The notes under the pieces: model-generated
The model's input: only the letters and a program-made list of their open reading frames with translations
What the model was told of the DNA's origin: nothing
Database searches by the model: none
Made by a program: the position numbers and the translations under genes
Assembly: GCA_025454475.1 (NCBI GenBank)
Contig: JALOOJ010000020.1
Span: 1 to 32,346, forward strand
Source: Anaerolineae bacterium
GTDB lineage: Bacteria; Chloroflexota; Anaerolineae; B4-G1; SLSP01
Reading direction: 5' to 3'
DNA length: 32,346 nucleotides
Shown: piece by piece, positions 6,285 to 31,679 of the stretch
Numbering within the stretch: position 1 is the first letter of the stretch
How the letters are laid out: every line of letters starts with the position of its first letter

Positions 6285-7385
6285 ATGGCACAGAACACCT
6301 CGGACCCTGAGATCAGCTACACGAAGGTTGACCGGCACGCGCTTCAGGCCCTGCTTGAGGCGTGTTTGGCGGCAACAGAACTCGCACAGGTGCGTGAGCT
6401 TGTCGCAGCCTATCGCCTTGCCACTGTAGGCGCTGCCGCGATGCTGCGCCCCGAGTTTGCGCCCCAAGACCCGGACACTGTTCTGCTGCAGCGTGACGTT
6501 TTCATACGCGAGCTCGATCAGGTTCTGGAAGCTCGTACGCTGGGACGTGCGGCATACTACCTACGGCGGCTGGAAAAGAGCACCGGCGAGGCCCGCACCT
6601 GCGAGGTCAATGATGTCAACCTGAACCGCTGGAAAGAGTACGACGAGATCCTCACCGACAGCCTGTGGGTGATGGATCGCCGCGACACGTCAGGTGCCCA
6701 CCGTGGCTGGTATTGGGGCAATTTCGTCCCGCAGATCCCGCACCAGATGATGCTGCGCTACACGAAGGCCCGCGATTGGGTGCTCGACCCCTTCGCGGGA
6801 AGCGGGACCACACTGATCGAGTGTCGGCGGTTGGGGCGTCACGGGATCGGCGTCGAACTCAACCCCGAGGTGGCTGCTCGTGCGGCTAAGTCGTTGGCGA
6901 GCGAGCCCAATCCTCATGCAATAACCACGGATATCGTGGTGGGCGATAGCGCCGCGATTGACTACACGTCGTTGCTCAGGGCTTACGAGATTGAGTATGT
7001 GCAGCTTCTGATTCTCCACCCACCGTACCACGACATCATCCAGTTCTCGCGCCACGACGCGGACCTATCGAATGCCGCAAGCGTCGACGCCTTCGTCGAC
7101 CAATTCGCCGCGGTTGTGGCGCGTGCGCGAGCAGCACTGGCACCGCGGCGCTATCTTGCGGTGATAATTGGTGACAAGTACCAGGATGGAGAATGGATTC
7201 CGCTCGGTTTTCGTGCGATGCAGGCAGTGATGGCCCAGGGGTGTACGCTGAAGAGCATTGTGGTCAAGAACCTTGACCGAACTAGAGCGAAGCGCGAGCA
7301 GCAGGCGCTATGGCGGTATCGGGCGCTTGCCGGGGGCTTCTATGTTTTCAAGCACGAGTACATCTTTGTGTTCCAGACGCCATAG
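6285..7385 (+). CDS. Amino-type DNA methyltransferase (N4-cytosine/N6-adenine)
   Basis: 366 aa. NFVPQIPHQMMLRYTKARDWVLDPFAGSGTTLIECRRLGRHGIGVELNPE (motifs X-I), LILHPPYHDIIQFS (motif IV), KHEYIFVFQ near the C-terminus. Confidence 0.88.
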   Translation: MAQNTSDPEISYTKVDRHALQALLEACLAATELAQVRELVAAYRLATVGAAAMLRPEFAPQDPDTVLLQRDVFIRELDQVLEARTLGRAAYYLRRLEKSTGEARTCEVNDVNLNRWKEYDEILTDSLWVMDRRDTSGAHRGWYWGNFVPQIPHQMMLRYTKARDWVLDPFAGSGTTLIECRRLGRHGIGVELNPEVAARAAKSLASEPNPHAITTDIVVGDSAAIDYTSLLRAYEIEYVQLLILHPPYHDIIQFSRHDADLSNAASVDAFVDQFAAVVARARAALAPRRYLAVIIGDKYQDGEWIPLGFRAMQAVMAQGCTLKSIVVKNLDRTRAKREQQALWRYRALAGGFYVFKHEYIFVFQTP

Positions 7386-7388
7386 GGT

Positions 7389-7416
7389 TTGCACGATTTG
7401 GGAATCATCCTAGAAT
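7389..7416 (+). promoter_or_regulatory. Candidate promoter TTGCAC-16-TAGAAT for the histidine kinase operon
   Basis: TTGCACGATTTGGGAATCATCCTAGAAT lies just after the methyltransferase stop. Confidence 0.5.
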
Positions 7417-7483
7417 CGGCATCGACGGCGTGTCACGGATGCAAATGAGCCGTCCCACAACGACCGCAAAGGAGCGGTGGACA

Positions 7484-10400
7484 ATGGATCTGAGTCCCGT
7501 GGATACCTCGGACGGCGAGCTTCCTTCCGACGCGGATGCGCCTGCCGGGGACACGTCCCTTTCACGTATATTGCGGGTGGCGTCAGAGATTTCCGAGCAG
7601 GCCGCCGCGATCCTGGACCCTGATGCACTATTGAGCGCTGTCGTCCCACTGCTGAAGGGGGCGTTTGGTTTCCAGTCCGTCTATGTCTACACTGCTGACC
7701 CTGAGAGCCGAATACTGCGCCTGGTATCCGGGTGCGGTCTGGCAGGGCCAGAGGGGCCATCCCGCGGCCATCGGGTTCACACGGATAGTGAAGATAGCCC
7801 GGTCGCTCAGGCGGTTCGCACTCGAGCGCCTGTGGCGTCAAGTGCCGCGACTGAGGCGATGGCTCCTTCGCCGAACGCACTGCCTTCCGAGGCGTGGTCT
7901 GGGCTGGCGCTGCCGATGATCGCGGGCCACGATGTGCTGGGGGTCCTGGACGTGCAGCATGCTGGTACCGAGTTGGCTCTGCCGGCTTACCAGGATGTGC
8001 TGGTTTGGCTTGGCGGGCAAATCGCCACAGCGCTGCGAAACGCTCGGCACGTGCAGCACCTGTCGCAGAAGCTTGAGGAGACGCAGGATCGGCTGGAAGT
8101 TGCCCAGGCCTTCAGTGGAGCTCAGACTGAGCGAGCCGTCGTCGACGCGCTGATGGCACACGCGCTCGCGCCCGAGGGTGTGTCTGCGCTGCTCGGGCTC
8201 GTACTTGATTCCCCGGACGGGACTCGATTCCGAGCCGCCCGGCACGTTCCCACCGAAGGCGCCTCGAGGCGGCAAAGCGCCGACCCGGTGCTCTTGAGCG
8301 TGCTGGAAGATGAGGATCTCACCAAGCTTCTCGGAAGGAGCGGCGAGTTCCTTACCGAGCGCGGACCCGACGACAGACGGCTGCCCGAGGTGCTTCGGAC
8401 CCGCTTGGGGGCTGCGGGAGTGGATCAGCTTCTTGCGCTGCCGCTGCGGATTCGGGACCAGTGGCTGGGTGTGCTCATCGTCGCTGCGCGGGTTCCTTTT
8501 GTCCTAGTCGACCAGGTGCGCCGGAGATACCGCGCGCTGGCAGAGCAGGGCGCCCTGGCCCTGCAGCAGGCTCAGCTTCGTGATCGCCTGAGCCTGACGC
8601 AGTTCTCGGTGGACCAAGCCCCGACCGCGATTCTGTGGATCCGACCCGACGGGACGCTCTCTTCGGTGAATGCCACTGCTTGTGCACTGCTGGGGTATAC
8701 GCGGGCGGAGATGCTGGCTCTGCCGTCGATCGCGGCGCTTGACCCCAAGATGATCGCGCGCGCATGGCAAGCGCACTGGGCCAAAGTGAAGCAGGAGCGC
8801 CGGTTCACAATTGTGACCGACTACCAGACCAAAGACAAGGCGCTAATCCCGGTTGAGGTCACTGCGAACTACTTGCGCTATGCAGGTGAGGAGTTCAACT
8901 GCGTCTATGTTCAGGATGTGTCCGAGCGGCTTGCCGCGCAGAAGACAGCGGAGCGGTTCACGGTGCAGTTGCGTACAGCAGCGGAGATCGCTGAACAGAT
9001 CGGCACTATTCTGGACACCGATGCCCTCCTTGCGGCCGTGATTCCGCTGCTCAAGGAGCGGTTTGGGCTGTATCACGCGCACTTCTACCGGCTGGAGGCC
9101 GACACCCTGGTATTGCGCGCAGGTTATGGGCGGATCGGAAAGATCATGGTCCAGCAGGTGCACGCCATTCCACTGGGCCACCCACACAGCCTTGTGGCGC
9201 GAGCGGCGACCACGCGAGAGCCAGTGCTGGTCAATGATGTCACGAAGTCGCCGGACTTTCTGCCCAACCTGCTCCTGCCGCAGACGCAGGCTGAGTTGGC
9301 TGTTCCCATCGTCTTCGGTGAGCAGGTGCTGGGCGTGTTCGACGTACAGTCGGATGAGCGGGATCACTTCACGCTGTCGGATCTCGATGTGTTCCGAAGC
9401 TTGGCCGGGCAACTCGCCAACGCCCTTACCAGCGCGCGGCTTTTCGAGCAGCAGGTGGACATGCAGCGCGAGCTGCGCAGATCGGTGCAAACGGTCCGCG
9501 CGATCTTTGACGCGATGACTGAGGGCATCCTGGTCACTGACATGATGGGCCGGATCAGTGACCTGAACGAGGCTGCGTTGCGGCTGTTCGGTTATGAGAC
9601 GCGTGACGAGTTGTTGGGCCGAAGTGCAATGGACCTCGTGACAAAATCCGGTTGGTCACGAATGGCCGAGGCCACTAGCACGGCCCTGGCATCGGGCTGT
9701 GGGCAGAGCCAGGAATATACGATGGTGCGCCGCGATGGCACAACGTTCGACGCGGAGCAGAGCGCAACGCTGCTATGGGACGCAAGTGGCGAGCCTCAGG
9801 GTGTGGTGTCCATCACGCGTGACATCACAGACCGGCGGCGCGCTCGCCGTGAGACACTTCGGTTCCAGGCGCTGGCCGAGAATGCCGTCGACGCCATCAT
9901 GTTGGCTGACTTCGCCGGGCGCATTTCCTATGCGAACGCAGCGTGCCTGGACCTATTTGGCTACGTCCATGCGCCCTACGACTTGCTGGGTCGGAGCATC
10001 GCCAACTGCTGGCCTGAGGATCAGGTCTTGGTCCTGTTAGAAGAGGTACTCCCGGCAGCCGGCGCTGGAGGGTGGCGCGGCGAGGTAACACAGATGCGTC
10101 GCGATGGGAGCTCATTCGATGCTTCCCTCACCTTCTTTGCGGTGAGTGGCGAGAGAGGTGAACCCCTGGGCGTGGCGACGATCGTGCGCGACATCACCGA
10201 GCGCAAGCGTGCTGAGACCGATCTGCGCCGGTTTGCGATCCAGCTGCGCACGGCTGCGGACGTCTCGGCTCAGGTCACGACAATCCTTGACCCGACCCGG
10301 CTGTTGGAGGCCGTGGTACCGCTGGTTCAGGAGCGCTTCGGACTCTACCATGTACACGTCTATACGCTCGACCCTGAGACCCGGCGTCTGGTAATGCGCG

Positions 10401-11485
10401 TCGGTTCGGGCGAGGCCGGACGCCTGATGCGCGAGGCCGGACACACGATCGGGCTGGACCAGGAGCCTAGCCTGGTGGCGCAGGCAGCACGCAGTGGCGC
10501 GATCGTGTGGGTCGATGATGTCACTCAGTCGACCGCGCACATGTTCAATCCGCTGCTGCCCAAGACACGCTCAGAGGTCGCGATTCCCATGATCACCGGT
10601 GACGCGGTCATCGGTGTGTTCGACGTGCAGGATGCCGCGCCGGGGCGTTTCGATCGGTCTGAGGTCGATGTCTTCAGCGCGTTGGCGGGCCAGATCGCTG
10701 TCGGGTTTCGCAACGCCCAATACTTTGAGGAGCTCCAGCAGGTCGCCGAGCGGCTACGGGAGGTCGATCGGCTGAAGAGTGAGTTCCTCGCCAACATGAG
10801 TCACGAACTGCGTACACCACTCAACTCGATTCTGGGGTATGCAGAATTGCTCCAGATGGGCATCGATGGCGCGCTCTCGCCTTCGATGTTGGAGGACGTC
10901 AACGCGATTTTCGAGAACGGTCAGCAGCTTCTGCAACTGATCAACGATATCCTCGATCTGACGAAGATCGAGGCTGGACGCATGAACCTGACGATGATGC
11001 CAGTCGCCATTGCTCCCCTGCTCGAAGAGGCCCGGGTCAGCTGTATGGGCCTGCTCCACAGGCAGCCTAAGCCCGTGGAAGTGGTGGTGGATGTTGAGGA
11101 CGCACTACCACCCGTGGTTGCCGATCCTATGCGGCTCGCACAGGTCCTGAACAACCTGTTGTCCAACGCGATCAAGTTTACCGACACGGGGGAGATTCGC
11201 CTGCACGCGAGGCACGATCCGGCGGGCCAGTGCGTCCTGATCGATGTCGTGGACACCGGCATCGGAATATCTGCCGAGGATCTAGCTCGGCTTTTTGAGC
11301 GTTTCCGTCAGATTGACGGCTCGACCACGCGGCGCGCTGAGGGGACGGGACTGGGCCTCGCCATCTCACGCCACCTCGTAGAGATGCACGGCGGTACGTT
11401 GACAGCGACGAGCGAGCTGGGCTGTGGGAGTGTATTCACCGTGAGCCTACCGCTGAATCAGCCTGCACCAGATACGAGCCAATAG
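7484..11485 (+). CDS. Soluble multi-domain sensor histidine kinase (GAF-GAF-PAS-GAF-PAS-PAS-GAF-HisKA-HATPase_c)
   Basis: The start at 7484 has AAGGAG 9 nt upstream, giving about 1333 aa; the ORF-track start at 7310 overlaps the methyltransferase. H-box SEFLANMSHELRTPLNSILGYAELL, N-box NNLLSNAIKFT, DTGIGIS, GTGLGLAISRHLVEMHGG. Repeated GAF modules and PAS cores are visible. No obvious TM segment. Confidence 0.93.
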   Translation: MDLSPVDTSDGELPSDADAPAGDTSLSRILRVASEISEQAAAILDPDALLSAVVPLLKGAFGFQSVYVYTADPESRILRLVSGCGLAGPEGPSRGHRVHTDSEDSPVAQAVRTRAPVASSAATEAMAPSPNALPSEAWSGLALPMIAGHDVLGVLDVQHAGTELALPAYQDVLVWLGGQIATALRNARHVQHLSQKLEETQDRLEVAQAFSGAQTERAVVDALMAHALAPEGVSALLGLVLDSPDGTRFRAARHVPTEGASRRQSADPVLLSVLEDEDLTKLLGRSGEFLTERGPDDRRLPEVLRTRLGAAGVDQLLALPLRIRDQWLGVLIVAARVPFVLVDQVRRRYRALAEQGALALQQAQLRDRLSLTQFSVDQAPTAILWIRPDGTLSSVNATACALLGYTRAEMLALPSIAALDPKMIARAWQAHWAKVKQERRFTIVTDYQTKDKALIPVEVTANYLRYAGEEFNCVYVQDVSERLAAQKTAERFTVQLRTAAEIAEQIGTILDTDALLAAVIPLLKERFGLYHAHFYRLEADTLVLRAGYGRIGKIMVQQVHAIPLGHPHSLVARAATTREPVLVNDVTKSPDFLPNLLLPQTQAELAVPIVFGEQVLGVFDVQSDERDHFTLSDLDVFRSLAGQLANALTSARLFEQQVDMQRELRRSVQTVRAIFDAMTEGILVTDMMGRISDLNEAALRLFGYETRDELLGRSAMDLVTKSGWSRMAEATSTALASGCGQSQEYTMVRRDGTTFDAEQSATLLWDASGEPQGVVSITRDITDRRRARRETLRFQALAENAVDAIMLADFAGRISYANAACLDLFGYVHAPYDLLGRSIANCWPEDQVLVLLEEVLPAAGAGGWRGEVTQMRRDGSSFDASLTFFAVSGERGEPLGVATIVRDITERKRAETDLRRFAIQLRTAADVSAQVTTILDPTRLLEAVVPLVQERFGLYHVHVYTLDPETRRLVMRVGSGEAGRLMREAGHTIGLDQEPSLVAQAARSGAIVWVDDVTQSTAHMFNPLLPKTRSEVAIPMITGDAVIGVFDVQDAAPGRFDRSEVDVFSALAGQIAVGFRNAQYFEELQQVAERLREVDRLKSEFLANMSHELRTPLNSILGYAELLQMGIDGALSPSMLEDVNAIFENGQQLLQLINDILDLTKIEAGRMNLTMMPVAIAPLLEEARVSCMGLLHRQPKPVEVVVDVEDALPPVVADPMRLAQVLNNLLSNAIKFTDTGEIRLHARHDPAGQCVLIDVVDTGIGISAEDLARLFERFRQIDGSTTRRAEGTGLGLAISRHLVEMHGGTLTATSELGCGSVFTVSLPLNQPAPDTSQ

Positions 11486-11521
11486 GTCCTGATGCGACCA
11501 CACATCGTGCCAGGAGGTAGT

Positions 11522-11905
11522 TTGAAGCGGACAGTGCTCTACATTGAGGATCAGTACCACAACCGGCGCCTCGTCGAGAAGGCGCTGACCTCCCGCGGCT
11601 ATGAGGTTCTGTTGGCCGAGGACGGTGTGGTCGGTTGGGAGATGGTGCGGGCGTACCATCCACCACTTCTGTTGCTCGATATTGCGCTTCCCGGTGCGCT
11701 TGACGGCCTGGCGGTCGCGGCGCGGGTGAAGGAAGATGCGGCGTTGGGCGATATCTGGATCATCGCAGTCACGGCCTCCGCGATGCATGGCGACCGCGAG
11801 CGCTTCCTGCGCCACGGGTGTGATGACTACCTGTCCAAACCGCTCCAGATGCAGCAGCTGCTGGCCAAGGTGGATGCGTTCTTTGAAAGGCAGGTTCAGG
11901 CATGA
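11522..11905 (+). CDS. Receiver-only response regulator
   Basis: TTG start at 11522 behind AGGAGG (ORF track starts at 11492). LKRTVLYIEDQYHNRRLVEKAL, LLLLDIALPG, DDYLSKPLQ. Confidence 0.9.
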   Translation: MKRTVLYIEDQYHNRRLVEKALTSRGYEVLLAEDGVVGWEMVRAYHPPLLLLDIALPGALDGLAVAARVKEDAALGDIWIIAVTASAMHGDRERFLRHGCDDYLSKPLQMQQLLAKVDAFFERQVQA

Positions 11906-12282
11906 AGACGATCCTGATTATGGAAGACAATGCGCACCAGTCCCGCCTCATGCGACGGTTACTGGAGCATGCTGGATACACGGTGTTGGAAGCGGCGGAC
12001 GGCGAGAGTGGCCTCCGCACTGCAATGGCTGCCGTTCCGGACCTGATTCTGCTCGACATGGGCCTTCCGGATCTCGACGGTCAGACTGTTGTGGGCCTGT
12101 TGAAAGGCTCGACGTTGCTTTCCCAAACGCCTGTGGTTGCCGTCACCGCGTGGCCTGAGGACTATGCCGCTGCGATGGCCACGGCCTATGGCTGTGACGG
12201 GTATCTCTCCAAACCGATTAGCGCGCACCTTTTCGCCGAGCAGGTTGGCGCTTACCTCGCGCCCACGGCTGGGGAGTCCTGA
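11902..12282 (+). CDS. Receiver-only response regulator
   Basis: 126 aa. MKTILIMEDNAHQSRLMRRLLEHAGYTVLEA, LILLDMGLPDLDG, GYLSKPIS. ATGA overlap with the preceding gene. Confidence 0.92.
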   Translation: MKTILIMEDNAHQSRLMRRLLEHAGYTVLEAADGESGLRTAMAAVPDLILLDMGLPDLDGQTVVGLLKGSTLLSQTPVVAVTAWPEDYAAAMATAYGCDGYLSKPISAHLFAEQVGAYLAPTAGES

Positions 12283-13276: not shown

Positions 13277-14452
13277 CTAGGCTTCGTGTATGTCGTCCAG
13301 AACAACGTCCGGCGCGATGCGACGGAGCCCTTCGGCGCTGGCTGGTGGGAATCCGACACCCAGAGCGGTGCCCACGACAACCACGGCACTTGGGCCGACA
13401 CCGCCGGCATGGACTGCTGCTGCGGCTGTGCCGTCGTGGATTACGGTGAGCTCAGGCCGCCAGCGACACGCTGTTGCCACGCCGGCGGCGATCAGTGGGC
13501 GCACATCGTCGGCAAGCGTGCTCATGCGGGCATACATTCCGTTCCCCAGAAGGCGGCCGCCGTCTACGTAGGCGGCGATACTCATCGCGATCCTCGAGTC
13601 CACCTGCCAGCCCTGCCGGGCGGCGTCATCCATGGTGGCACAGATCACGCTTACCACGAAGTCCAGGACCTGGTGCCCATCGATGTCCCTCGAGGCATCG
13701 GGGCTGTTACGCCATCGCCACGCCACCGGTACCGCGGGGAGGTAAGCCACGTGTACCACGGCATCGTCGCTGTAGGTGAGAACTCCGCGCTTGACCGAGG
13801 TGTGGCCCAGATCGAATATCAGCGCCCGTTGCGCCTTCGTCGCGTCCGTGGCGCGCGGCAGATAACGCGCAGCTCCCAGGACAGCCATGTGTAGCTGGTG
13901 AATCGTCAAGTCGAGTTGCATATCGGCGCATCCGGATTCTGCCAGTACGGTACGGGCGTGGTGCAGCATCGCCCTGCCCAGATCACCACTGACTATGCCG
14001 CCACCGAGCCAGACGTGCCGGATACTGTGCCAGTGGGACCATTCCGCTTCCGTCCAGTCGGGCCGTGCGGCCCGGTTCACCGCGTCGCCACGGTGAAGCG
14101 CAACGAGCACGTACCCAAGGTTGCGTCCCAGCCGTTCGGCAATGCTCCATGCGGCCGAGTGAACCTCGGGGTCTGCACTGCTCAAGGCCGCGTCGACCCA
14201 GCGGGGAACGTCGCGGCGGACTGCGGGGAGCTCTGGGTCGGCAGAGCGCAGCGCTAAGGGAAGTTTCAGCGCTGCGGCACGTTCAAGGGCATACCGGATC
14301 AGAGTCGGTAGGGAGAGCAGGTGGTAGGCCTGCTCTCCACGAACGGTGCTATCGACCGCGAGTCCCGGAAGGTCGACGATCACGACGCGGTTGATCGACG
14401 CCGTCGACGGCGTGCGCGGAGGGTCTGGCACACCGGAGCGCGTGGTAGCCAC
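13277..14452 (-). CDS. ROK-like ASKHA-fold protein with apparently circularly permuted halves
   Basis: Motif order in the translation: LPTLIRYALERAA, AERLGRNLGYVLVALHRGD, VWLGGGIVSG, AVLGAARYLP, ALIFDLGHTSVKRG, IAMSIAAYVDGG, VIHDGTAAAAVHAGG, AVVVVGTALGVGF. The start is uncertain (GTG 14452, 14431 or 14383). The ORF-track start at 14632 overlaps the nitroreductase. Confidence 0.7.
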   Translation of the reverse strand: MATTRSGVPDPPRTPSTASINRVVIVDLPGLAVDSTVRGEQAYHLLSLPTLIRYALERAAALKLPLALRSADPELPAVRRDVPRWVDAALSSADPEVHSAAWSIAERLGRNLGYVLVALHRGDAVNRAARPDWTEAEWSHWHSIRHVWLGGGIVSGDLGRAMLHHARTVLAESGCADMQLDLTIHQLHMAVLGAARYLPRATDATKAQRALIFDLGHTSVKRGVLTYSDDAVVHVAYLPAVPVAWRWRNSPDASRDIDGHQVLDFVVSVICATMDDAARQGWQVDSRIAMSIAAYVDGGRLLGNGMYARMSTLADDVRPLIAAGVATACRWRPELTVIHDGTAAAAVHAGGVGPSAVVVVGTALGVGFPPASAEGLRRIAPDVVLDDIHEA

Positions 14453-14459
14453 CTTCAGG

Positions 14460-14480
14460 CGGGGCGGCGCCGCCGCCCCG
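14460..14480. repeat. 9-bp GC stem with 3-nt loop (CGGGGCGGC-GCC-GCCGCCCCG)
   Basis: Perfect inverted repeat between the nitroreductase stop and the candidate GTG 14452 start of the ROK-like gene. Confidence 0.6.
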
Positions 14481-14495
14481 GCATCCTCTGTCTCG

Positions 14496-14999
14496 CTACC
14501 AGGCGTTGCGATGGACGATCGCGTCGGCCCAGCGCTCGACGCGGCCTCGGTCCTCAGCCGGATGGCCAAGAGCCAACAGTGCAACCGGCACGAAGGGATC
14601 AGGTATGCCGAAGACGTCGCGCAGGCCGGCAACGCGCCCCTCGTCGGGATAGACCCCCGTCCAACATGTGCCGAGACCGAGCGCTCGCGCGGCTAGAAGG
14701 ATGTTCTCGATCGCTGCGGCACAGTCCTGCTGGAAGAAGCGAGGTGATCGGCTCGTATCGGCCACGACCAGAATCCCGATCGGCGCCTCAGCGAGCATCC
14801 TGGCGTAAGGGTGGACCGTCATCATGGCGTCTAGCTTGTCGCGACCATCGACGATGACGAAATGCCACGGCTGGCGGTTGTTGGCCGATGGGGCGTTCAT
14901 CCCGGCTTCCAGGACAGTTCGAAGGTCCTCTTCGGAGACGGGATCTCCTGTGTACTTGCGAATGCTTCTGCGGGTGAAGATAGCCTCGAGTGCGTCCAT
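14496..14999 (-). CDS. Nitroreductase family protein
   Basis: MDALEAIFTRRSIRKYTGDPVSEEDLRTVLEAGMNAPSANNRQPWHFVIV, AAIENILLAARALGLGTCWTG. ATG 14999 follows AGGAGG; the ORF-track start is 15065. Confidence 0.92.
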   Translation of the reverse strand: MDALEAIFTRRSIRKYTGDPVSEEDLRTVLEAGMNAPSANNRQPWHFVIVDGRDKLDAMMTVHPYARMLAEAPIGILVVADTSRSPRFFQQDCAAAIENILLAARALGLGTCWTGVYPDEGRVAGLRDVFGIPDPFVPVALLALGHPAEDRGRVERWADAIVHRNAW

Positions 15000-15027
15000 A
15001 TGTTTGCCTCCTAGGGCTTGGTGATGG

Positions 15028-16800
15028 CTAACTGCTCTTGAACTGGACTTCCATGACTGTTGCATCGATCGCGGCCTGAAGCGCGGCGAGTCGAGTCTTC
15101 ACGCTGGACACCACGTCGGGCAACGGGACGAACTCACGCGCCGGACTGGTACGGAGCTTGAACTCCACGGCCTTCTCGGCCAGTCCGCGACGGGCAACCG
15201 TTATGCGTAGTGGCAACCCTATCAGGTCGGCGTCATTGAACTTGATCCCAGGGCTTCTGTCGCGGTCGTCATAGAGCACCTCAACGTCTGCGGCGACCAG
15301 GTCGGCGTATAGCTGATCCGCTACCGTCTCGGCCTCCGATCCCATTGGGCCCAGATTGGTCAGATGGACGTGGTAGGGTGCGACCGAGACGGGCCAGATG
15401 AGGCCCTGCGCGTCATTGTGTGTTTCGGCGACGCACGCTAGCGCGCGCCCTATGCCGATACCGTAGGAACCCATCACAACGGGGTGAGGTGCACCATTCT
15501 CATCGGCAAATGCGGCGCCCATCGCGGCGCTGTAGCGGGTGCCCAGCTTGAAGATGTTACCCACTTCGACGCCGCGCTCGGCCCGCATCGGCGTGCCGCA
15601 GTTCGGGCAAGCGTCGCCGTCTTCCGCCGCAGCGATGTCGCAGATCATCTCGGGCTGGAAGTCCCGGCCCGTGTTGACGTTCAACAGATGGTAACCCACT
15701 TCGTTGGCGCCCGCAACGAGGTTCGGCGAGGTGGCGACTGCATCATCGATGACGACAAGACAGTCGTGAACGCCGACGGGCGATCCGTAGCCTGGCTCTG
15801 CCCCGATTGCGCGGATCTCCGCTTCGGTCGCGGGACGCAGCTCCTTGGCCTTCACGGTATTGGCAAGCTTGGTCTCGTTGAGGGTCATGTCGCCACGCAC
15901 GACAGCGAAGACGAAGCGCTCTACATAGCGGTCATCCTGGCTGATCGTGGCAACCATAAAGACGGCCTTGGCAGTCTGCGCGGGCGTCAGGCTGAGAAAC
16001 GCGGTCAGATCCTGGATAGTGGTGATCGCCGGGGTCGCGATCTTCTCAACAGGCCGCAGGGGCTCGATGGGGGAGGCGGGCTTGCGGAATCGAGCCACCT
16101 GCCGGTTGGCTGCGTAGCCGCACGCTGAACACAACAACAAGGTATCCTCGCCGATCGGGGTCAGCACCATGAACTCGTGGGCCATGCTCCCGCCCATCAT
16201 CCCGGTGTCGGAACCCACTGCGATGGGCTGCAGGCCACAGCGGCGGAAGATGTTGAAGTAGGCTTGGTAGTGCGCTCGGTACTGGCGGTCGAGCCCGGCT
16301 TCGTCGGCGTCGAGACTGTAGCTATCCTTCATCGTGAACTCGCGAACACGGATCAGGCCCGCCCGCGGACGGGGATCGTCGCGCCACTTCGTCTGGATGT
16401 GGTAGACGAGAACAGGAAGATCGCGGTAGGACTGGATCTCCTGACGTACCAGGTCGGTCATGACCTCCTCGTGGGTCATCGCCAGGACCATGTCCCGGTC
16501 GGTACGGTCCTTGAATCGGCCCATCTCGGCCCCAACCGTGTACCAGCGCCCGGTCTCCTGCCAGATCTCGGCGGGATTGACGACGGGCATCTTGATCTCT
16601 TGCCCGCCGATTCGGTCCATTTCCTCGCGCACGATCTGCTCGATCTTGGCAAGGGCCCGTAATCCGAGCGGGAGCGCACTGAAGATCCCGGCCGCGTGCT
16701 GCCGGATGAGCCCTGCCCGCAACAACAGCTGGTGGCTCAGCACCTGGGCCTCCGATGGGGCCTCGCGCAACGTGTTGCCGAAGAGTCTGGTCATGCGCAT
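15028..16800 (-). CDS. proS: Prolyl-tRNA synthetase (bacterial type with editing insertion)
   Basis: 590 aa. LLLRAGLIRQHAAGIFSALPLGLRAL, RDDPRPRAGLIRVREFTMKDSYSLD, VVMGSYGIGIGRALACVAE. Confidence 0.97.
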   Translation of the reverse strand: MRMTRLFGNTLREAPSEAQVLSHQLLLRAGLIRQHAAGIFSALPLGLRALAKIEQIVREEMDRIGGQEIKMPVVNPAEIWQETGRWYTVGAEMGRFKDRTDRDMVLAMTHEEVMTDLVRQEIQSYRDLPVLVYHIQTKWRDDPRPRAGLIRVREFTMKDSYSLDADEAGLDRQYRAHYQAYFNIFRRCGLQPIAVGSDTGMMGGSMAHEFMVLTPIGEDTLLLCSACGYAANRQVARFRKPASPIEPLRPVEKIATPAITTIQDLTAFLSLTPAQTAKAVFMVATISQDDRYVERFVFAVVRGDMTLNETKLANTVKAKELRPATEAEIRAIGAEPGYGSPVGVHDCLVVIDDAVATSPNLVAGANEVGYHLLNVNTGRDFQPEMICDIAAAEDGDACPNCGTPMRAERGVEVGNIFKLGTRYSAAMGAAFADENGAPHPVVMGSYGIGIGRALACVAETHNDAQGLIWPVSVAPYHVHLTNLGPMGSEAETVADQLYADLVAADVEVLYDDRDRSPGIKFNDADLIGLPLRITVARRGLAEKAVEFKLRTSPAREFVPLPDVVSSVKTRLAALQAAIDATVMEVQFKSS

Positions 16801-16825
16801 CGTGTTGTGGCCTTTCGTCAGCCCA

Positions 16826-18388
16826 CTAGAAATGACCCTTGGGGTGGGCCCGGATAAGCCTGGCAGCGTCGCGCGCGCCGACCATAACGTTCTGGATGCC
16901 GCCGCCGCTCTTGCTCTGGCTGCCTATGAACCAGAGTCCCTTGACGGGTGTCTCGTAGCCCGGTGCGTCCTGACCCAGCACCGGGACGCGACCGCCGAAG
17001 GCGTGGTGGTCCTGGTGGGTGCGCCCGCGGAAGTCCTCCGGGGTCAAGATGATCTGAGCCCTCACATGATCGCGCAGATCAGGGATCACGTTCTCGGCGT
17101 AGGCCACGAGTTTCCCGGCCAACTCGTGCTTGCGGCTCTGCCACGTGCCCTCACTCAACTCGTTGGGGGCGATGGTGTAGATCGTGATCGAATGCTGATT
17201 CCGCGGCGCCATCGCCGGCGAGTGCATCGATGGGAAGTAGAGCACGAACCCATCAGCGCCCTCGTGATACTCGCCGCGTCTACAGGCCGCGACGCTCGTC
17301 TCGATGTCGTAGGTCCCATAGTAGTAGCCCAGCGGATCAGGCTGGAATGGCCGTGGGTCCATGTCGACGCCAAGGTGTACCATCAGCACGGATTCCATCA
17401 GTTCCAGCTCGTCGACCAGGTAGGCGAAGTCAGCGGTGAGGTACTCCCGGCCGACCAGCTTCAGGAAGGTCTCGCGGGCGCCACCGGAGGCGATCACGAT
17501 GTCCGCCAACTCGACGTGACCGCCGGCAAGCTCCACCCCCCTGACGCGGTCGCCCTCCACGAGGATCTTCTCAACGGTGGCATTGGTATAGATCCGAACA
17601 CCGTTTCGGCGCAGGGCTGTACCCAGCGCCTTTACCAGCGAGCCACAGCCGTCAGCAACGAACTGGTAGCTGGGGCGCCTGCCCGCATTGGAGAGCCGAC
17701 GCGGGATGCGCTGGTCGAAGCTGTTCTCCACGTTAAGCACCGGCACTGCGAGCCCCGGAAAGGTGCTTGGGCGGGCCACGAAATCGGCGAGGATCGAGGT
17801 GAAGATGGCCTTCAGCCGCTTGTCGACGAAGTAGTGATCCATAAGCTTCTGCGCCGACCAGGCCTCACGCTGTCTGACGCGGTTGTACGCGCGCCAGAGC
17901 TGCATCTTTACCAGGCTCTTGCGCGGCTCGCGCGCGACGTCGGCGCGTACATTGAGCGCCACGACGTTGAGCATGCGGTTGTAGAAGGTGTAGTAAGCGT
18001 CGATGGACGCCCGTTCGGCGGGGAATAGCGCTTTCAGACGCTCGCGGCGCCAATTCGGACCCTCATAGGACTCGGGCCGCCAGAGGCTGAAGTCGGGGAA
18101 GACATAGCCGCGGTTGCCCATCTTGAGCCCGACCTGGTCTGCGATCCCCAGGTCTTTGAGGATGTGGCCGCCGCGCTCATCGGGGGCTAGGCCCTCGACG
18201 AGGAGTGGCCCCAGGTCCCACGCGTAGCCGCTCTCACGCAACGTCGCGGTAACGCCGCCGATCTCATCAGCCTGCTCGTAGAGCGTAACGGGATACCCAG
18301 CCTTCGCAAGGTAAGCCGCTGCGGTCAGGCCGGACAGCCCGGCCCCGATGACGACGACCTTATTGTGGACCTGATTCCTCTTGCGCAT
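16826..18388 (-). CDS. Phytoene-desaturase-like NAD(P)/FAD-dependent oxidoreductase
   Basis: 520 aa. VVVIGAGLSGLTAAAYLAKAGYPVTLYEQADEIGG dinucleotide fold; C-terminal GLWFIGSQSKSGGGIQNVMVGARDAARLI. Confidence 0.9.
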   Translation of the reverse strand: MRKRNQVHNKVVVIGAGLSGLTAAAYLAKAGYPVTLYEQADEIGGVTATLRESGYAWDLGPLLVEGLAPDERGGHILKDLGIADQVGLKMGNRGYVFPDFSLWRPESYEGPNWRRERLKALFPAERASIDAYYTFYNRMLNVVALNVRADVAREPRKSLVKMQLWRAYNRVRQREAWSAQKLMDHYFVDKRLKAIFTSILADFVARPSTFPGLAVPVLNVENSFDQRIPRRLSNAGRRPSYQFVADGCGSLVKALGTALRRNGVRIYTNATVEKILVEGDRVRGVELAGGHVELADIVIASGGARETFLKLVGREYLTADFAYLVDELELMESVLMVHLGVDMDPRPFQPDPLGYYYGTYDIETSVAACRRGEYHEGADGFVLYFPSMHSPAMAPRNQHSITIYTIAPNELSEGTWQSRKHELAGKLVAYAENVIPDLRDHVRAQIILTPEDFRGRTHQDHHAFGGRVPVLGQDAPGYETPVKGLWFIGSQSKSGGGIQNVMVGARDAARLIRAHPKGHF

Positions 18389-18452
18389 TGCTGCTGTCAG
18401 CTCCTGAGGCGACCACCGCTACCTGCGGTGGCCCCTGGGGTGAGAGGTGGCG

Positions 18453-19499
18453 CTAGCGCACCTTGAACAGGAGGACAAGCAAAATCGGCGTGCCGATTGC
18501 CTGGAGCAGGACGAACCGGACCAGAACCTGTGTGTTCGACCACCCGAGGGTATGGCGGACGTGGTCGTGAAGCGGGTAGCGCACGCCCTTGAAGATGCTG
18601 ATCTTCAGAAAGCGGAGCAGCGTCACCTTGAGAAGGCCTGTGGCGCCGTTCACGAGCACTACGCCGGTCACGACGAAGATCAGGAAGGGATTGCCTGAGG
18701 CCATCACCAGTAAGCCCAAGAGGAGACCCATGGGTCTGGAGCCGGCGTCGCCCATCAACACGGCGCTTGGGAGGCTGTTGTGCCACAAGTAGCCCGCGAG
18801 GCAGCCCACCATGATGAAGGCCATCAGCGCCCAGTTGGCGCCGTCGGGGTAGTGGGGCACCAGCAGGTAGCGCGAGATATCGCTATGGCCGACGACGCCG
18901 TAGAGAATGCCACCGAGATAGATGAAGGCCAGAATCGCGAGGCTTGCGGAAAGCCCGTCCACGCCGTCGGTGCAGTTGGTCGCGTTGATCATAAGCCAGA
19001 GCACGACTGTGGTCAGGGGAATGAAGAGCCAGGGCGACAACGTGAGGGGAGTCTTGAAAAGCGGCAGCCAGATGACGTAGTCGTGCAGTTGGCACAGCGT
19101 CACTGCGCCGAGAACTGAAATGCCCAGGTCTAGCGCCCCAAGCTTGTACTCACTCCATCCGGGACTCCGGTCGTCAAGGTACCCCTCAAGCATGGAGAGC
19201 ACGATGCATCCGACGATACCCACGACGCGCCAGTCGAAGGGCATAACGAGCAGGGCGACGGCGGAGAAGATCGAGACGAAGATCAGCCCCGCGCCGACGG
19301 GTTTTCCCTTGGCCTTCTCGCCGTCGACGGCGAACACGCGACCGTGATCGTGTGGGAGCCGATCCCAGAATCTGGGCAACGCAGCCCAGGTACCAATCGC
19401 GGCCATAGCCGCGCCAATGCTGGCGAGAAAGAGATAGGAGTTGAACAGCCGGAAGGGGCCCCAGAACTGCTCGAGGTGCTCACCAATCCAAGGAAGCAA
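18453..19499 (-). CDS. MraY-like phospho-N-acetylmuramoyl-pentapeptide transferase / GT4 polyprenyl-P transferase
   Basis: TTG start at 19499 behind AGGAG. GYLDDRSPGWSEYKLG, NCTDGVDGLSASL, MGDAGSRPMGLLLG, PLHDHVRHTLGWSNTQVLVRF match the MraY/WecA motif series. Multi-TM. Confidence 0.8.
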   Translation of the reverse strand: MLPWIGEHLEQFWGPFRLFNSYLFLASIGAAMAAIGTWAALPRFWDRLPHDHGRVFAVDGEKAKGKPVGAGLIFVSIFSAVALLVMPFDWRVVGIVGCIVLSMLEGYLDDRSPGWSEYKLGALDLGISVLGAVTLCQLHDYVIWLPLFKTPLTLSPWLFIPLTTVVLWLMINATNCTDGVDGLSASLAILAFIYLGGILYGVVGHSDISRYLLVPHYPDGANWALMAFIMVGCLAGYLWHNSLPSAVLMGDAGSRPMGLLLGLLVMASGNPFLIFVVTGVVLVNGATGLLKVTLLRFLKISIFKGVRYPLHDHVRHTLGWSNTQVLVRFVLLQAIGTPILLVLLFKVR

Positions 19500-19529
19500 G
19501 GTCGATCTCCTTGTGTATGCGATGTGCGT

Positions 19530-19538
19530 ATTATACCA
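19530..19538 (-). promoter_or_regulatory. Extended -10 TGGTATAAT upstream of the mraY-like gene
   Basis: Minus strand CCCTGGTATAATACGCACATC, about 31 nt upstream of the TTG start. No recognisable -35. Confidence 0.6.
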
Positions 19539-19749
19539 GGGCTCCCGTTTCCGCCAGCCGACCTCCGGCATAGGGGCAGCGTCGCCTTGTGAGGATTCAT
19601 GGTCAGTGTATGTCGGACTGCGGCGCAAGGCTCGAGGCATCGGCCCCACGTGGGTCGGCGAGAGGTCTCAGGGGGCTCTTGGTGGTGGCGCCGCGCGAGG
19701 CGGCAGATGCCTTCGCAAGGTTTCCGCAACTTGCGTAGAAGAGAGCTCG

Positions 19750-21150
19750 CTAGATGTCTACCTCAGGCGGTGGAGGCGAGAGCGGAGTGACCGCAATGTC
19801 GCTGAACGTCACGGGGCCGTCCTGAGCGTAGAAGAAGAGCCGATCGCCGGCGAGCTGCGGCAGGCGGTTGATGATGCAGCGCTGCCCGCCGGGGGTCCCG
19901 GCGTCGATACAGACGTCTAGCAGGTCCTCACGGGCGATGATGTCGAGCCCGAATGGACGATCGAGTCCACGTACGAGTGTTAGACTGACGTCGCCAAGAC
20001 TGACGGTGCTCTCCAGCGGACTGAAACGCAGGTCATAGCCGGAGGCGAAGGCTCCGGTGCCCCGGAGTCTCAGGCCGAACGTATGAGCGCCCGCGGGCTC
20101 GACGCGCAACGTGGTCCGTGCGTTGTGTGGCAGGCCACAGAACATTGCGACCTCGATCCCCAACGGCGCGGTCAGGGTGATGGCGCTGTCGCTGACAAGC
20201 GCCTTGCCGGTCAGGGCTTTGGCAGGTGGAGCTAGCCGCGGCCCCGTCGGTGGCACCATCTCGGGCACAAAGCGAACTCCCAGCGTCCCATCGGGGTGCT
20301 GGATCAACTCGCGGACCACGAGGGCGCCGCCCCACTGGCGGTTGCCTCGGTCCACGTCGTCCTCGCGCGTCCCCACCCAGGCCACGCCCAGCCGCCGGTC
20401 CGGGCCGAAGGGCGCCGTTTTCATCACCGCAGCCATCGCGCCGTCGAACGTGTCAACGGCGGGGCGTTGCCAGGGCCCCAGTGGCCCGCGGGCCATCCGA
20501 TAGTGGGCGACGAGCCCGTGGCTGAAGATCAGGTACCACCAGCCATTCCACTCGAACAGGTCCGGACACTCCGGAGCGCCAGGATAGGCCGAGAGGAAGA
20601 ACGGCTCCTGCTCCTCCCAGCGCACCAGATCGGCTGATGTGAGGTGAGCCAGGCAGCCGCCGAAGCCTGTGAGCGGTGGCTCCGCCAGCGCCGAGGTGAC
20701 GAGCATGTGAAAGAGGCCTGTCTCCGGCTCTCGGAAGACAAACGGGTCGCGGTAGTCAACGCGCGAGTAGCGCGGGCTGGGCGATGCGAGCGGCGCGTGC
20801 TTGGTGAAGGTCACCCCATCACCGCTCGTGGCGACGCCCAGGTGCTGCGTCCAGTCGGGCCGTCGCGTTGCGTAGAAGGCGTAGAAGGTGCCCGCATGAA
20901 AGAAAGGCGACCCCGTGCAGATCGAGCCCTCCCAGGGCTCAGTGATCGCCAGAGCCAGTGGATGGTGTTCCCAGTGGATAAGGTCAGTCGTCGATGTGTG
21001 GGCCCACTGATGTCCACCCAGCCCGCCGAGGCTCTTGTGGTGGCCCCGATCGTGAAGGTAGAACAGGTGGAAGACGCCGTCGTGGTAGAACGGCATCGCG
21101 TCGCCGGCGAAGGTGTCGTCGTCAGAGGGGGTATAGTATTGCATGCTCAT
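19750..21150 (-). CDS. GH32-like (clan GH-J) glycoside hydrolase
   Basis: 466 aa. FYHDGVFHLFYLHDR...STTDLIHWEHHPLAL, CTGSPFF, VDYRDPFVF (RDP), APECPDLFEW (EC). The canonical WMNDPNG is replaced by TFAGDAMPF. Confidence 0.8.
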   Translation of the reverse strand: MSMQYYTPSDDDTFAGDAMPFYHDGVFHLFYLHDRGHHKSLGGLGGHQWAHTSTTDLIHWEHHPLALAITEPWEGSICTGSPFFHAGTFYAFYATRRPDWTQHLGVATSGDGVTFTKHAPLASPSPRYSRVDYRDPFVFREPETGLFHMLVTSALAEPPLTGFGGCLAHLTSADLVRWEEQEPFFLSAYPGAPECPDLFEWNGWWYLIFSHGLVAHYRMARGPLGPWQRPAVDTFDGAMAAVMKTAPFGPDRRLGVAWVGTREDDVDRGNRQWGGALVVRELIQHPDGTLGVRFVPEMVPPTGPRLAPPAKALTGKALVSDSAITLTAPLGIEVAMFCGLPHNARTTLRVEPAGAHTFGLRLRGTGAFASGYDLRFSPLESTVSLGDVSLTLVRGLDRPFGLDIIAREDLLDVCIDAGTPGGQRCIINRLPQLAGDRLFFYAQDGPVTFSDIAVTPLSPPPPEVDI

Positions 21151-21216
21151 AGGCTCGCGCGGACATGGTATGAGGGAAAAGCAAATGAAGTCCAGCCTTC
21201 TCCCTTGGCCCTGTCC

Positions 21217-22176
21217 CTATTCCTCCATGGCTTCTGCGATACGCATAGAGTTCACGGCGTTCTGAAAGGTGGAGCGCGCCACCTTGCCGGCACAGGTCTT
21301 GGTGAGGAACTCGATGTACTCCTCGACAATGCCGATGCGCACAATCTCCGGCGCGACGGGCTCCGTGTCAGACTCAATGAGCTCCCGGATCCGGCCCCGA
21401 TCGATGATGATCTGTCCGGCCTCCGCCTCGTAAGGGCCTGTGAAGTAGATCGACTGGCTCGCGCTATGGACCTCCAGGCGCTCAACCTGAGAACCGGCGC
21501 AGGGGAAGACTTTGAGCAGACCGCGGAGACCCCCGGCAAAGGTCAGGTGCGCGACCGTGTTCAGGGTCTCGTTCTCCGGGCTGGCGAAGCGCTCCACGGT
21601 GACATCCTGAATCCGTCCACACACGTACTCCATATAGTTGATCCAGTGAACGGCGGTCTGGGTGATGAAGGCCGGATCGTGGCGCTCGTGGCGCAGAAAG
21701 TGACCTTCGACGTAATAGGCACCCTCCATCCCGTTCACCAGTGTCCGAAACCGGTTGTTCAGCGGCGCAAACCGCCGGTTAAATGCGACGAGGTTAGGGA
21801 CGGTGATCAGCTCAGCCAGTTCCTGCGCTTCGGCCGCGCTCACGCCAGGTGGTTTCTCGCTGAATATGGGGACGCGGTTCGCCGCCGCGCGCCGGACCAC
21901 GGCGCCCGTTGCTTCCGGCACCACAGCGACTGCAATGGCGTTGACGGAACCGTCGGCAAGCAGATCGTCCAGGCTGTCATAGACCCGCGTGAAACCGACC
22001 CGCACCGCTACAGCTCGGGCCATTTCCGGTTCTAGGCTGTAGATGCCCTGCAGGGACAGCTGAATCCCGGGCAGCTTGTCAGGGTGCTCAAGCAGGTAGG
22101 TGAGGGCCGGAAAGTGTTTGCTCCTGGCCCAACTGCCGGTGCCGATGAAGGCGAGCTTGACAGGGCGTGTGGTCAC
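21217..22176 (-). CDS. Gfo/Idh/MocA family oxidoreductase
   Basis: GTG start at 22176 in a GTGA overlap with the upstream gene. VTTRPVKLAFIGTGSWARSKHFPALTYL, FSEKPPGVSAAEAQELAEL (EKP motif). The ORF-track start at 22473 lies inside the upstream gene. Confidence 0.9.
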   Translation of the reverse strand: MTTRPVKLAFIGTGSWARSKHFPALTYLLEHPDKLPGIQLSLQGIYSLEPEMARAVAVRVGFTRVYDSLDDLLADGSVNAIAVAVVPEATGAVVRRAAANRVPIFSEKPPGVSAAEAQELAELITVPNLVAFNRRFAPLNNRFRTLVNGMEGAYYVEGHFLRHERHDPAFITQTAVHWINYMEYVCGRIQDVTVERFASPENETLNTVAHLTFAGGLRGLLKVFPCAGSQVERLEVHSASQSIYFTGPYEAEAGQIIIDRGRIRELIESDTEPVAPEIVRIGIVEEYIEFLTKTCAGKVARSTFQNAVNSMRIAEAMEE

Positions 22177-23048
22177 AGCCTCCGGCCCTGCTGCTGGGCA
22201 GCGCCCGACACGATTGACTTGAGGAATGCGATGCTTCGGCGGGTGCCCTCGCGGAAACTCTCGCCGCCCTCGTACTCGCTGTAAACGGGGCCGTCGTAGC
22301 CCTGGGTCCTGAGTCGCGCCAGCAGCCACGCAAGTGGCAGATCTCCCTCGCCGGCGGGCACAAAGACGAAGCCCTGATCCGTCCACTTGCCATCCTTGAC
22401 GTGGACGCTGACGACGTGGGGCAGCACGGCCTCGAGATCGGCCCGAACCTCGTCGGGACCGTGCCCGGCCCAAGCAAAGTTGCCCGTATCAAGCGTGAAG
22501 CCAAGGTTGGAGGCTCCGACTTCCTGCACCAGCGCCACGAGTGCGGGGCCGTCGTTGATGAGACGCCCGTGGTTCTCAATGCCCAAGGTTACCCCCAGCA
22601 CGGCGGCGAGCGCGCTTGCCTTGCGCAAGGCGGCAACGATACCGCGGCGCGTGCCCTCGAGGGTTATGCCCGGTTTCACATCACCCACGAAGGTGCGCAC
22701 GATGGGCACCTCCATCTCCGACGCCGCCCGGCAGGTTGCCATAAGGCGCGCGACCTCTGCATCCAGGGCTACCTCGGCGTTGGCATCCAGTGCATGCGTG
22801 ATGGCGAAGTCGCAGTAGCCGCTCAGGCTCCTAATCATCAGGCCGGATTGCTTGGCCCACGTCAGGATCTGCGGGATCGTGCTGCTATCGAGGGCGATGT
22901 CGTGATGCCGTTGGGCGTTGCCGTTGATCTCGATCACGGTGCCGCCCATCGTGGCGAGCTCCTCAAAGACCTGCGGCAACGGCGTGCCGCTCCATCCAAG
23001 ACTAACTGCGCCGACGTCGCGCAGCGCAAAGCCGTCTAGCATTTGCAC
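22173..23048 (-). CDS. Sugar phosphate isomerase/epimerase (xylose-isomerase-like TIM barrel)
   Basis: 291 aa. LGVTLGIENHGRLINDGPALVALVQEVGASNLGFTLDTGNFAWAG, VVSVHVKDGKW, GYDGPVYSEYEGGE. Confidence 0.9.
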   Translation of the reverse strand: MQMLDGFALRDVGAVSLGWSGTPLPQVFEELATMGGTVIEINGNAQRHHDIALDSSTIPQILTWAKQSGLMIRSLSGYCDFAITHALDANAEVALDAEVARLMATCRAASEMEVPIVRTFVGDVKPGITLEGTRRGIVAALRKASALAAVLGVTLGIENHGRLINDGPALVALVQEVGASNLGFTLDTGNFAWAGHGPDEVRADLEAVLPHVVSVHVKDGKWTDQGFVFVPAGEGDLPLAWLLARLRTQGYDGPVYSEYEGGESFREGTRRSIAFLKSIVSGAAQQQGRRL

Positions 23049-23061
23049 GATAGGTCTCCTG

Positions 23062-23784
23062 TCACTGGCTTGGGGTGGACTTGGCCTGAAGCATAGCCAG
23101 GACCTCGTTCGCCTGGGTCACAAGGCCCGGTAGCTCATCGGCCTTGGCTACCTTATCGAAGGCATAGAGGACCACAACGGAACCGCTGGCCTCGAGGCAA
23201 AGGGTGGCGTTGCTGTCGAAGAGCGCGACAAACGCATCATCGAACAGCGCCTGGACGGCCAGCCTGTCGTAGCCGTGGATATGGGTTCGTTCGGCAAACG
23301 AGGGGTACTGCGGTAGCTTGATCTGTGGCGACCCGAGCACCATCTCGCGCAGCTCGGGATCGCGCGCGCGTGTCGCCAGTGCTTCGAAGACCCTCTGCGG
23401 CATCACCGAGAATGCCGGTAGCGTCAGCGTATCGGACGAGATGCGTACCACCGTCTGTCGCCAGTTCTGTAGGTAGCGCCCAAATCGCACGTTGAAGCCA
23501 TACTCGAACACCGCGAGCTCAGGCGCCGCGTAGCCAGCCTCTGTGGGCGCACTCCACGGACGCTGAATAGCGTTCTTGGTGCCGCTCGGTACGCCTTGCG
23601 CGAACAACAGAAAGCCGGCGGGCAGGGCGAGCAGCCGGGGATCACCGTCCTCGGAATAGGTGAAGCCCATCGCCTCAGCTTGCCGGCGCAGGCTCGCATT
23701 GCGTCGTTTGTCCTTCAGGTCCTGGACCCCGTTCACCAGCAGCACGAACAGGAGCAGGACACCCACACCGATTAGCAGTGGCAT
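23062..23784 (-). CDS. Hypothetical protein with a single N-terminal TM helix
   Basis: 240 aa. MPLLIGVGVLLLFVLLVNGVQDLKDKRR, then a soluble domain I do not recognise. It sits tightly between genes of the minus-strand cluster. Confidence 0.75.
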   Translation of the reverse strand: MPLLIGVGVLLLFVLLVNGVQDLKDKRRNASLRRQAEAMGFTYSEDGDPRLLALPAGFLLFAQGVPSGTKNAIQRPWSAPTEAGYAAPELAVFEYGFNVRFGRYLQNWRQTVVRISSDTLTLPAFSVMPQRVFEALATRARDPELREMVLGSPQIKLPQYPSFAERTHIHGYDRLAVQALFDDAFVALFDSNATLCLEASGSVVVLYAFDKVAKADELPGLVTQANEVLAMLQAKSTPSQ

Positions 23785-23798
23785 TGTTGCCTCCGACC

Positions 23799-24569
23799 CT
23801 ACTCTACGCCCATCGCGCGCAAGTTGTCATAGCTGATCCTCAGGCTCTCGAAGGGGTCGCGGCGGCAGACATCCTGCTCGATGGCATACCACTCGACGTC
23901 GGCGAGATCGCAGGCCTCCAGAATCCCCTCCCAGTTGAGGTTACCCTCACCGATCTCGGCCATGATCTGCTGTCCCTCATGGATGACCATATCCTTGAAG
24001 TGTATCACGGGCATACGATCCGCCATCTTGTCGATCCAGGAGATTACGTCGCCGCCGCCGTGCTGTACCCAGTACGTATCGATCTCGGCCTGAAGATAGG
24101 CGGGGTCGCTCTCGTCATAGATCACATCGAGCCCCGTGCGGCTGCCGAAGCGGACGAACTCGAAGCTATGGTTGTGATAGCTGAAGGTGAGCCCGGCGTC
24201 GGCGAGTTTCCGGCCCACTTCGGTCGCGTCGTGGGCGAACTGCACGAAGCCTGCCTCGCCGCCCTCACGATAGACCGCCGGCATGCTCCCGATGGCCACG
24301 TTGGGGCACTCCCAGAGCTTGTGCTGCGCGATAGCGGCATCGAGGTCGTTCTGGAGGTAGTCGAATCCGACGTGAGTGATGCAGATCGACAGCCCGTGGG
24401 CGTCGGTGATCGCCTTCACCTCCTCGTGGGGGATTGGGCCAATCCCTGACACCTGCACGGCGGTATAGCCGATCTTGGCGACCTTCGCCATACTCGTGCG
24501 GAAATCCTCCGCGGTCCTGCAGAAGTCACGAACGGTGTAGAGCTGAGCAGCCAGTCTTGGGTGGGTCAT
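23799..24569 (-). CDS. Sugar phosphate isomerase/epimerase (TIM barrel)
   Basis: 256 aa. AQLYTVRDFCRTAEDFRTSMAKVAKIGYTAVQVSGIGP, GLTFSYHNHSFEF, VIHFKDMVIHEGQQIMAEIGEGNLNWEGIL. Confidence 0.92.
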   Translation of the reverse strand: MTHPRLAAQLYTVRDFCRTAEDFRTSMAKVAKIGYTAVQVSGIGPIPHEEVKAITDAHGLSICITHVGFDYLQNDLDAAIAQHKLWECPNVAIGSMPAVYREGGEAGFVQFAHDATEVGRKLADAGLTFSYHNHSFEFVRFGSRTGLDVIYDESDPAYLQAEIDTYWVQHGGGDVISWIDKMADRMPVIHFKDMVIHEGQQIMAEIGEGNLNWEGILEACDLADVEWYAIEQDVCRRDPFESLRISYDNLRAMGVE

Positions 24570-24663
24570 GGGGTCCTCCTATAGGGTCGAAAGGCGCAAA
24601 GGCGTAGAGACTCTGAGCCGTATCCCCACACGTTGAACGGTAGCTCTTCGCCTGATCGCTCGC

Positions 24664-25410: not shown

Positions 25411-25473
25411 GTCACTCCGGGAACCATGGTAGCGCAGGCGGGGAAAAAGGCGAACGCGCACGCGACGTGCGTA

Positions 25474-25482
25474 TGGTACAAT
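25474..25482 (+). promoter_or_regulatory. Extended -10 TGGTACAAT upstream of the phosphotransferase
   Basis: GTGCGTATGGTACAATCCGTGGTGAGGAAACGATG. A TG-extended -10 about 16 nt before the ATG, with no clear -35. Confidence 0.5.
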
Positions 25483-25498
25483 CCGTGGTGAGGAAACG

Positions 25499-31600: not shown

Positions 31601-31679
31601 TGGTACCTCCCTATCGGTTCTGCCCTTGCGCATGCCCGAAAACCTTCGCAAGGGGAAGACGGCGCCGCGGGGGAACGCT

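Follow-up and report, generated by a model that had tools for sequence, protein, structure and literature searches.

The window, a term used here for the whole stretch of DNA analysed (32,346 nucleotides), carries on its minus strand a gene encoding a putative circularly permuted ROK-like protein, whose features are collected in Table 1. A nitroreductase gene (14496-15065, Pfam Nitroreductase) adjoins it on the same strand, and on the other side a convergent GNAT acetyltransferase gene ends at 13165. The permuted gene closes a collinear minus-strand run (13277-25611) with ProRS, nitroreductase, FAD oxidoreductase, GT4, a GH32-like hydrolase, a GFO/IDH/MocA oxidoreductase and three xylose-isomerase-like TIM barrels, and another genome of the genus (L077) largely preserves the order of this run. 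Synteny of the permuted gene was observed within the genus only; since the neighbours differ outside it, the gene does not belong to a widely conserved operon. Elsewhere in the window, a large multi-domain histidine kinase, GAF/PAS-like, and two response-regulator-like genes after it (7310-12282, plus strand) were recognised by reading the sequence only, and a 692-aa protein without a Pfam match at E 0.001 is encoded at 29639-31714 on the minus strand. Rfam and tRNA scans of the window returned nothing.

Table 1. Features of the permuted gene (coordinates refer to the window, residues to the encoded protein).
Feature	Residues	Coordinates	Strand	Remarks
Circularly permuted ROK-like protein (putative), whole gene		13277..14452	minus	391 aa; GTG start at 14452, stop at 13277
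SINR (S19-x-N21-R22)	19-22	14387..14398	minus	SxNR near the new N-terminus; without detectable ROK counterpart
ROK C-terminal-half equivalent (putative)	45-199	13856..14320	minus	ROK profile 188-317; moved to the front of the chain
LPTLIRYALERAA	48-60		minus
IAERLGRNLGYVLVALHRGD	104-123		minus
RGDxxNRxxRxxW....W..W	121-141	14030..14092	minus	Family-specific insertion preceding the adenosine motif; many invariant columns
VWLGGGIVSG	147-156		minus
LGGG adenosine motif (ROK iViGGG)	149-152	13997..14008	minus	Aligned to ROK GGG
MAVLGAARYLP	189-199		minus
LGAA (ROK C-terminal helix llGAA counterpart)	192-195	13868..13879	minus	Gapless match
ALIFDLGHTSVKRG	210-223		minus
DLGHTSVK phosphate-1 motif (ROK DxGGTxxK)	214-221	13790..13813	minus	Gapless match
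IAMSIAAYVDGGRLL	288-302		minus
VIHDGTAAAAVHAGG	337-351		minus
IHDGTAAAA catalytic-Asp segment (ROK vNDANAAA)	338-346	13415..13441	minus	D340; aligned to ROK ND
AVVVVGTALGVGF	356-368		minus	23 residues, then C-terminus
GTALGVGF phosphate-2 motif (ROK GTGIGGGI)	361-368	13349..13372	minus	Aligned to ROK phosphate 2

Reading of the translation revealed that the ROK/ASKHA motifs are all present in the protein, with the two halves in swapped order. This order had been proposed in the initial annotation of the DNA, and every motif quoted there was found, in the order quoted, as was the end of the protein shortly after the last of them. The absence of the zinc motif CxCGxxGC, also claimed there, extends to the aligned homologs. 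On the other hand, the protein does not start with LPTLIRYALERAA, as had been stated, because about 47 residues precede this segment, among them the SxNR motif.

The correspondence with ROK proteins is supported by the individual segments. The top gapless match of the LGAA segment is ROK 296-317 (z 4.9), and that of the DLGHTSVK segment is ROK 8-28 (z 4.8), with its D, G and K conserved in 25/25 homologs. The aspartate D340 of the catalytic segment is likewise D in 25/25, and the G and T of phosphate 2 are found in all 25, this motif lying 23 residues before the new C-terminus. In the homolog alignment, the adenosine motif has G in 24/24 sequences at three columns. The S and N of SxNR are conserved in 23/23 and its R in 22/23, and the RGDxxNR...W insertion coincides with the stretch left unaligned in the comparison with ROK.

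Full-length homologs with the same order, whose existence in other genomes had been put forward as a check, were found in about two dozen Chloroflexota genomes, which represent several families and extend to one further class or more. Whole-genome searches detected relatives in 10/60 close genomes, 21/396 genomes drawn from the class and 7/400 drawn from the phylum, some of the latter outside the class; these samples overlap and include the genome under study. A separate scan of genome contigs gave one record (Chloroflexi MAG GSL.Bin35), and no relative was detected in viral contigs, nor any match in plasmids. The mean column identity among ten aligned members is 54%, and in the outlying members phosphate 1 reads DFGGS, closer to the canonical DxGGT.

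Some incomplete or additional copies were also observed. In L072 (G669:C63, 2246-3399, minus strand), whose phosphate 1 is DFGGSSVK, the halves are encoded in separate but overlapping frames, owing either to a frameshift in sequencing or to a natural split of the gene. Another match (L070/L086, G610:C16:3528-3722) is a fragment with only LIGVAR...VMDFGHTSVKRG that a stop interrupts; WD40-like sequence comes next in the frames, and the fragment is probably a remnant pseudogene near the contig end. A short second match (L011/L035, G008:C105:1831-1944) lies in a 58-aa open frame and covers no more than the N-terminal ~38 residues with SxNR; its genome has a full copy of the permuted protein elsewhere.

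The values of dN/dS between homologs range from 0.12 to 0.28, the larger distances being rough owing to dS saturation. The permuted gene is under purifying selection and, since the homologs keep the motif order at full length with these ratios, this order is far above chance. An alternative to a permutation would be a fusion, by chance or by an assembly error, of two incomplete ASKHA domains or of halves of adjacent genes. The two overlapping frames in L072 could be taken in this sense, but in all the other full-length homologs found there is a single frame with the same order. Several homologs have a total open frame of only 370-385 aa, which leaves no space for an upstream phosphate-1 segment, the feature that would have revealed tandem partial domains according to the initial annotation. 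Moreover, a rotated profile detected no canonical-order relative of the permuted subfamily in 199 genomes of the class and matched only permuted proteins, in two pieces and in swapped order. The conserved single-frame architecture already rules out such a fusion for most members, and as a general explanation it is extremely improbable.

Regarding family libraries, nothing was found for the window protein in Pfam, NCBIfam or PDB sequence searches, and the gathering score of PF00480 was not reached (0 Pfam matches). Nine homologs gave only chance matches against Pfam, four rotated sequences gave no ROK match, and the family profile against the PDB gave one chance match to a helical repeat protein (E 0.12). 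As both native and rotated sequences escape the Pfam ROK model, the case for homology depends on profile-profile comparison. It should be noted that a conserved protein family is thereby exposed which current family libraries leave unnamed.

The comparison was made with hhalign using profiles of 25 permuted proteins and 57 ROK proteins, the latter from Chloroflexota genomes. Against a single ROK copy, the C-terminal half (permuted columns 186-349) aligned to ROK 5-151 with a score of 44.6, and the N-terminal half (columns 35-181) to ROK 188-316 with a score of 34.1. Hence, the proposal that the old C-terminal half precedes the old N-terminal half, and its suggested check of each half against complementary ROK parts, were borne out in an equivalent profile-profile form. 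Scanning rotations against a single ROK copy gave no information, since the phosphate-1 segment dominates the local score, a problem solved by tandem duplication of the ROK profile. With the duplicated profile, one alignment (columns 35-349 to 188-475) crossed the junction with a score of 68.5 and a probability of 94.7. When the columns of the N-terminal half were shuffled, the tandem score fell to 44.0 +/- 1.8 with a maximum of 57.7 (n=500). The N-terminal half alone scored 34.7 against ROK, versus 14.9 +/- 2.6 and a maximum of 24.0 in its null (n=500), and 17.5 when reversed. Three disjoint subsets of the family each gave a junction-spanning alignment (52.7, 77.1 and 48.6). The canonical-order controls Glk and BadF gave alignments confined to one ROK copy, and ROK compared with itself showed no internal repeat. 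The result was weaker in an earlier comparison on smaller sets (22 and 25 sequences), where the observed score of 50.6 was matched by the highest-scoring of 300 shuffles (51.0).

Structure prediction contributed little. AlphaFold was given only two sequences, the window protein and one homolog (L013), which took turns as the query, and the mean pLDDT was 45.7 and 45.4. In these weak models the first half contains helices, strand, helix, strand and helix, and the second half three strands, helix, strand, two helices and two strands. This order is compatible with a permuted ROK fold and with the two RNase H-like domains expected of an ASKHA protein, although models of such low confidence prove nothing. 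Foldseek gave no significant match with either model (all E > 0.03), and ASKHA proteins, including ROK 2hoe and 3htv, were prominent among the non-significant matches. The poor models, together with the lack of any Pfam, NCBIfam or significant PDB sequence match, could mean that the protein has a different, canonical-order fold that resembles ROK by chance or convergence. Nevertheless, the ROK parts matched by the two halves are complementary, the N-terminal half exceeds all 500 shuffles and the junction is crossed in the three disjoint subsets, so that a different fold is considered very unlikely.

It could also be argued that the permuted protein is nearer to another ASKHA family (Glk PF02685, BadF/NAGK PF01869, FGGY or CoaX) than to ROK. 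The permuted family did give a weak junction-spanning alignment with tandem Glk (30.2), as would be expected within one superfamily, but tandem ROK scored far higher; BadF reached 18.7 as a single copy and 26.9 in tandem, with an alignment of only 12 sequences. In this comparison, limited to ROK, Glk and BadF, ROK is closer to the permuted family than Glk or BadF, and an affiliation elsewhere in ASKHA remains unlikely, if less so than a different fold. The score of ROK against Glk (61.1) sets the scale for an accepted distant relationship, and by this measure the profile similarity between the permuted family and ROK is as strong as that between ROK and Glk.

Taken together, the protein is very probably a circularly permuted homolog of ROK, an inference that rests on comparison of sequences. 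It is described as a permuted ROK homolog and not as a ROK protein, owing to the Pfam threshold it fails, its swapped motif order and its lack of the zinc motif. The permutation would have connected the ancestral C-terminal helix (LGAA) to the ancestral first strand, which bears phosphate 1, by means of a short linker, with new termini opening past the phosphate-2 hairpin. In a canonical ROK kinase the C-terminal helix is part of the N-terminal small domain (PMC10031466), which would place the old ends close together and allow them to be joined without disturbing the fold; such a joining is inferred to be structurally plausible. The break had been placed after phosphate 2, and this location is right, but the exact cut cannot be fixed within ROK profile ~152-187. 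ROK 152-187 is unaccounted for in the permuted family, and no counterpart in ROK could be detected for the first ~34 alignment columns. As a separate observation, SVNRVRIVDLPGLPL was tested as the equivalent of the ROK strand AGEIGHM...PL and was not supported.

The ASKHA superfamily is recognised by its adenosine motif and its two phosphate motifs, phosphate 1 and phosphate 2 (PMC1079889), and all three are invariant at key positions in the permuted family. In the ROK kinase PsNagK, D6 is a metal ligand, T10, K11 and T132 touch the phosphates, D105 is the catalytic base, and the sugar is held by S78, N104, D105, E154, H157 and D187 (PMC10031466). The counterparts of D6, D105 and T132 are D214, D340 and T362, all invariant (25/25). 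T10 corresponds to T218, which is Ser in some members, and K221 is invariant. The position of N104 is occupied by His (H339), and those of E154, H157 and D187 lie within or next to the unalignable stretch, where no recognisable counterpart of the E154/H157 segment was found in the permuted family.

According to these correspondences, the protein would most likely keep the same two-domain cleft and bind Mg-ATP between phosphate 1 (D214, T218, K221), phosphate 2 (G361-T362) and the adenosine GGG (150-152), and D340 would act as the general base in the phosphorylation of a small molecule. It is probably an ATP-dependent small-molecule kinase, with fold, ATP use and catalysis all inferred; catalysis itself, for which there are no activity data, is regarded as somewhat more credible than its absence. 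It is possible, though rather doubtful, that the permuted ROK fold no longer phosphorylates and that the protein, with its nucleotide site retained, senses or regulates by binding ATP or a ligand. This would concern only the kinase part of the interpretation and not the permutation. The replacement of the GlcNAc-contacting Asn by His, the Glu/His and zinc segment being absent or unrecognisable, and the lack of a conserved metabolic operon partner outside the genus are in line with a sensor. However, the invariance of the metal Asp, the catalytic Asp, the phosphate-1 Lys and the phosphate-2 GT in 25 homologs is usual for catalysis, and the protein has no partner domain, DNA-binding or otherwise. 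If the protein is a kinase, as preferred here, its inferred substrate is probably not glucose or GlcNAc, given the lost zinc site, the change of Asn to His before the base and the new SxNR and RGDxxNR...W segments. These two motifs suggest another substrate.

To our knowledge, the core motifs follow a single order in all known ASKHA proteins (hexokinases, actin, Hsp70, FGGY and ROK kinases). In agreement with the initial annotation, which knew of no permuted ROK protein, the open-access literature yielded no case of a ROK kinase, or any other ASKHA kinase, permuted in nature (subscription papers were not covered). The classification of kinases allows permutation within fold groups, and the part of it considered names none for this group (PMC1079889). 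By a small margin, we favour the view that these Chloroflexota proteins are the first case of natural circular permutation within the ROK/hexokinase branch of ASKHA, and that they are kinases whose phosphate 2 lies close to the C-terminus and whose SxNR and RGDxxNR...W segments recognise a new substrate. A permutant that keeps the whole ATP site would imply that the fold tolerates new ends beside the phosphate-2 loop, and the permuted family would be a natural experiment on folding and domain closure.

Concerning known systems, the ROK kinases (PF00480; GlcK/GlkA, NagK, NanK, allose kinase) have the same phosphate-1, catalytic-Asp, phosphate-2, adenosine and LGAA segments, in matching halves. 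Their order is phosphate 1, ND, phosphate 2, GGG and LGAA, whereas in the permuted family it is GGG, LGAA, phosphate 1, HD and phosphate 2. The permuted family also differs in having HD for ND at the base and GTA for GTG, in lacking CxCGxxGC, in carrying the extra RGDxxNR...W insertion and the SxNR N-terminus, and in falling below Pfam detection. Glucokinase Glk (PF02685) belongs to the same ASKHA superfamily with the same motif set, but its order is canonical and its similarity much weaker. The BcrAD/BadF/BadG and GlcNAc kinases (PF01869) share the ASKHA phosphate-1 motif, in canonical order and without real profile similarity. FtsA/PilM actin-like proteins have the ASKHA fold with an altered topology, as subdomain 1C of FtsA is relocated; this departure is a relocated subdomain and not a circular permutation of the kinase core.
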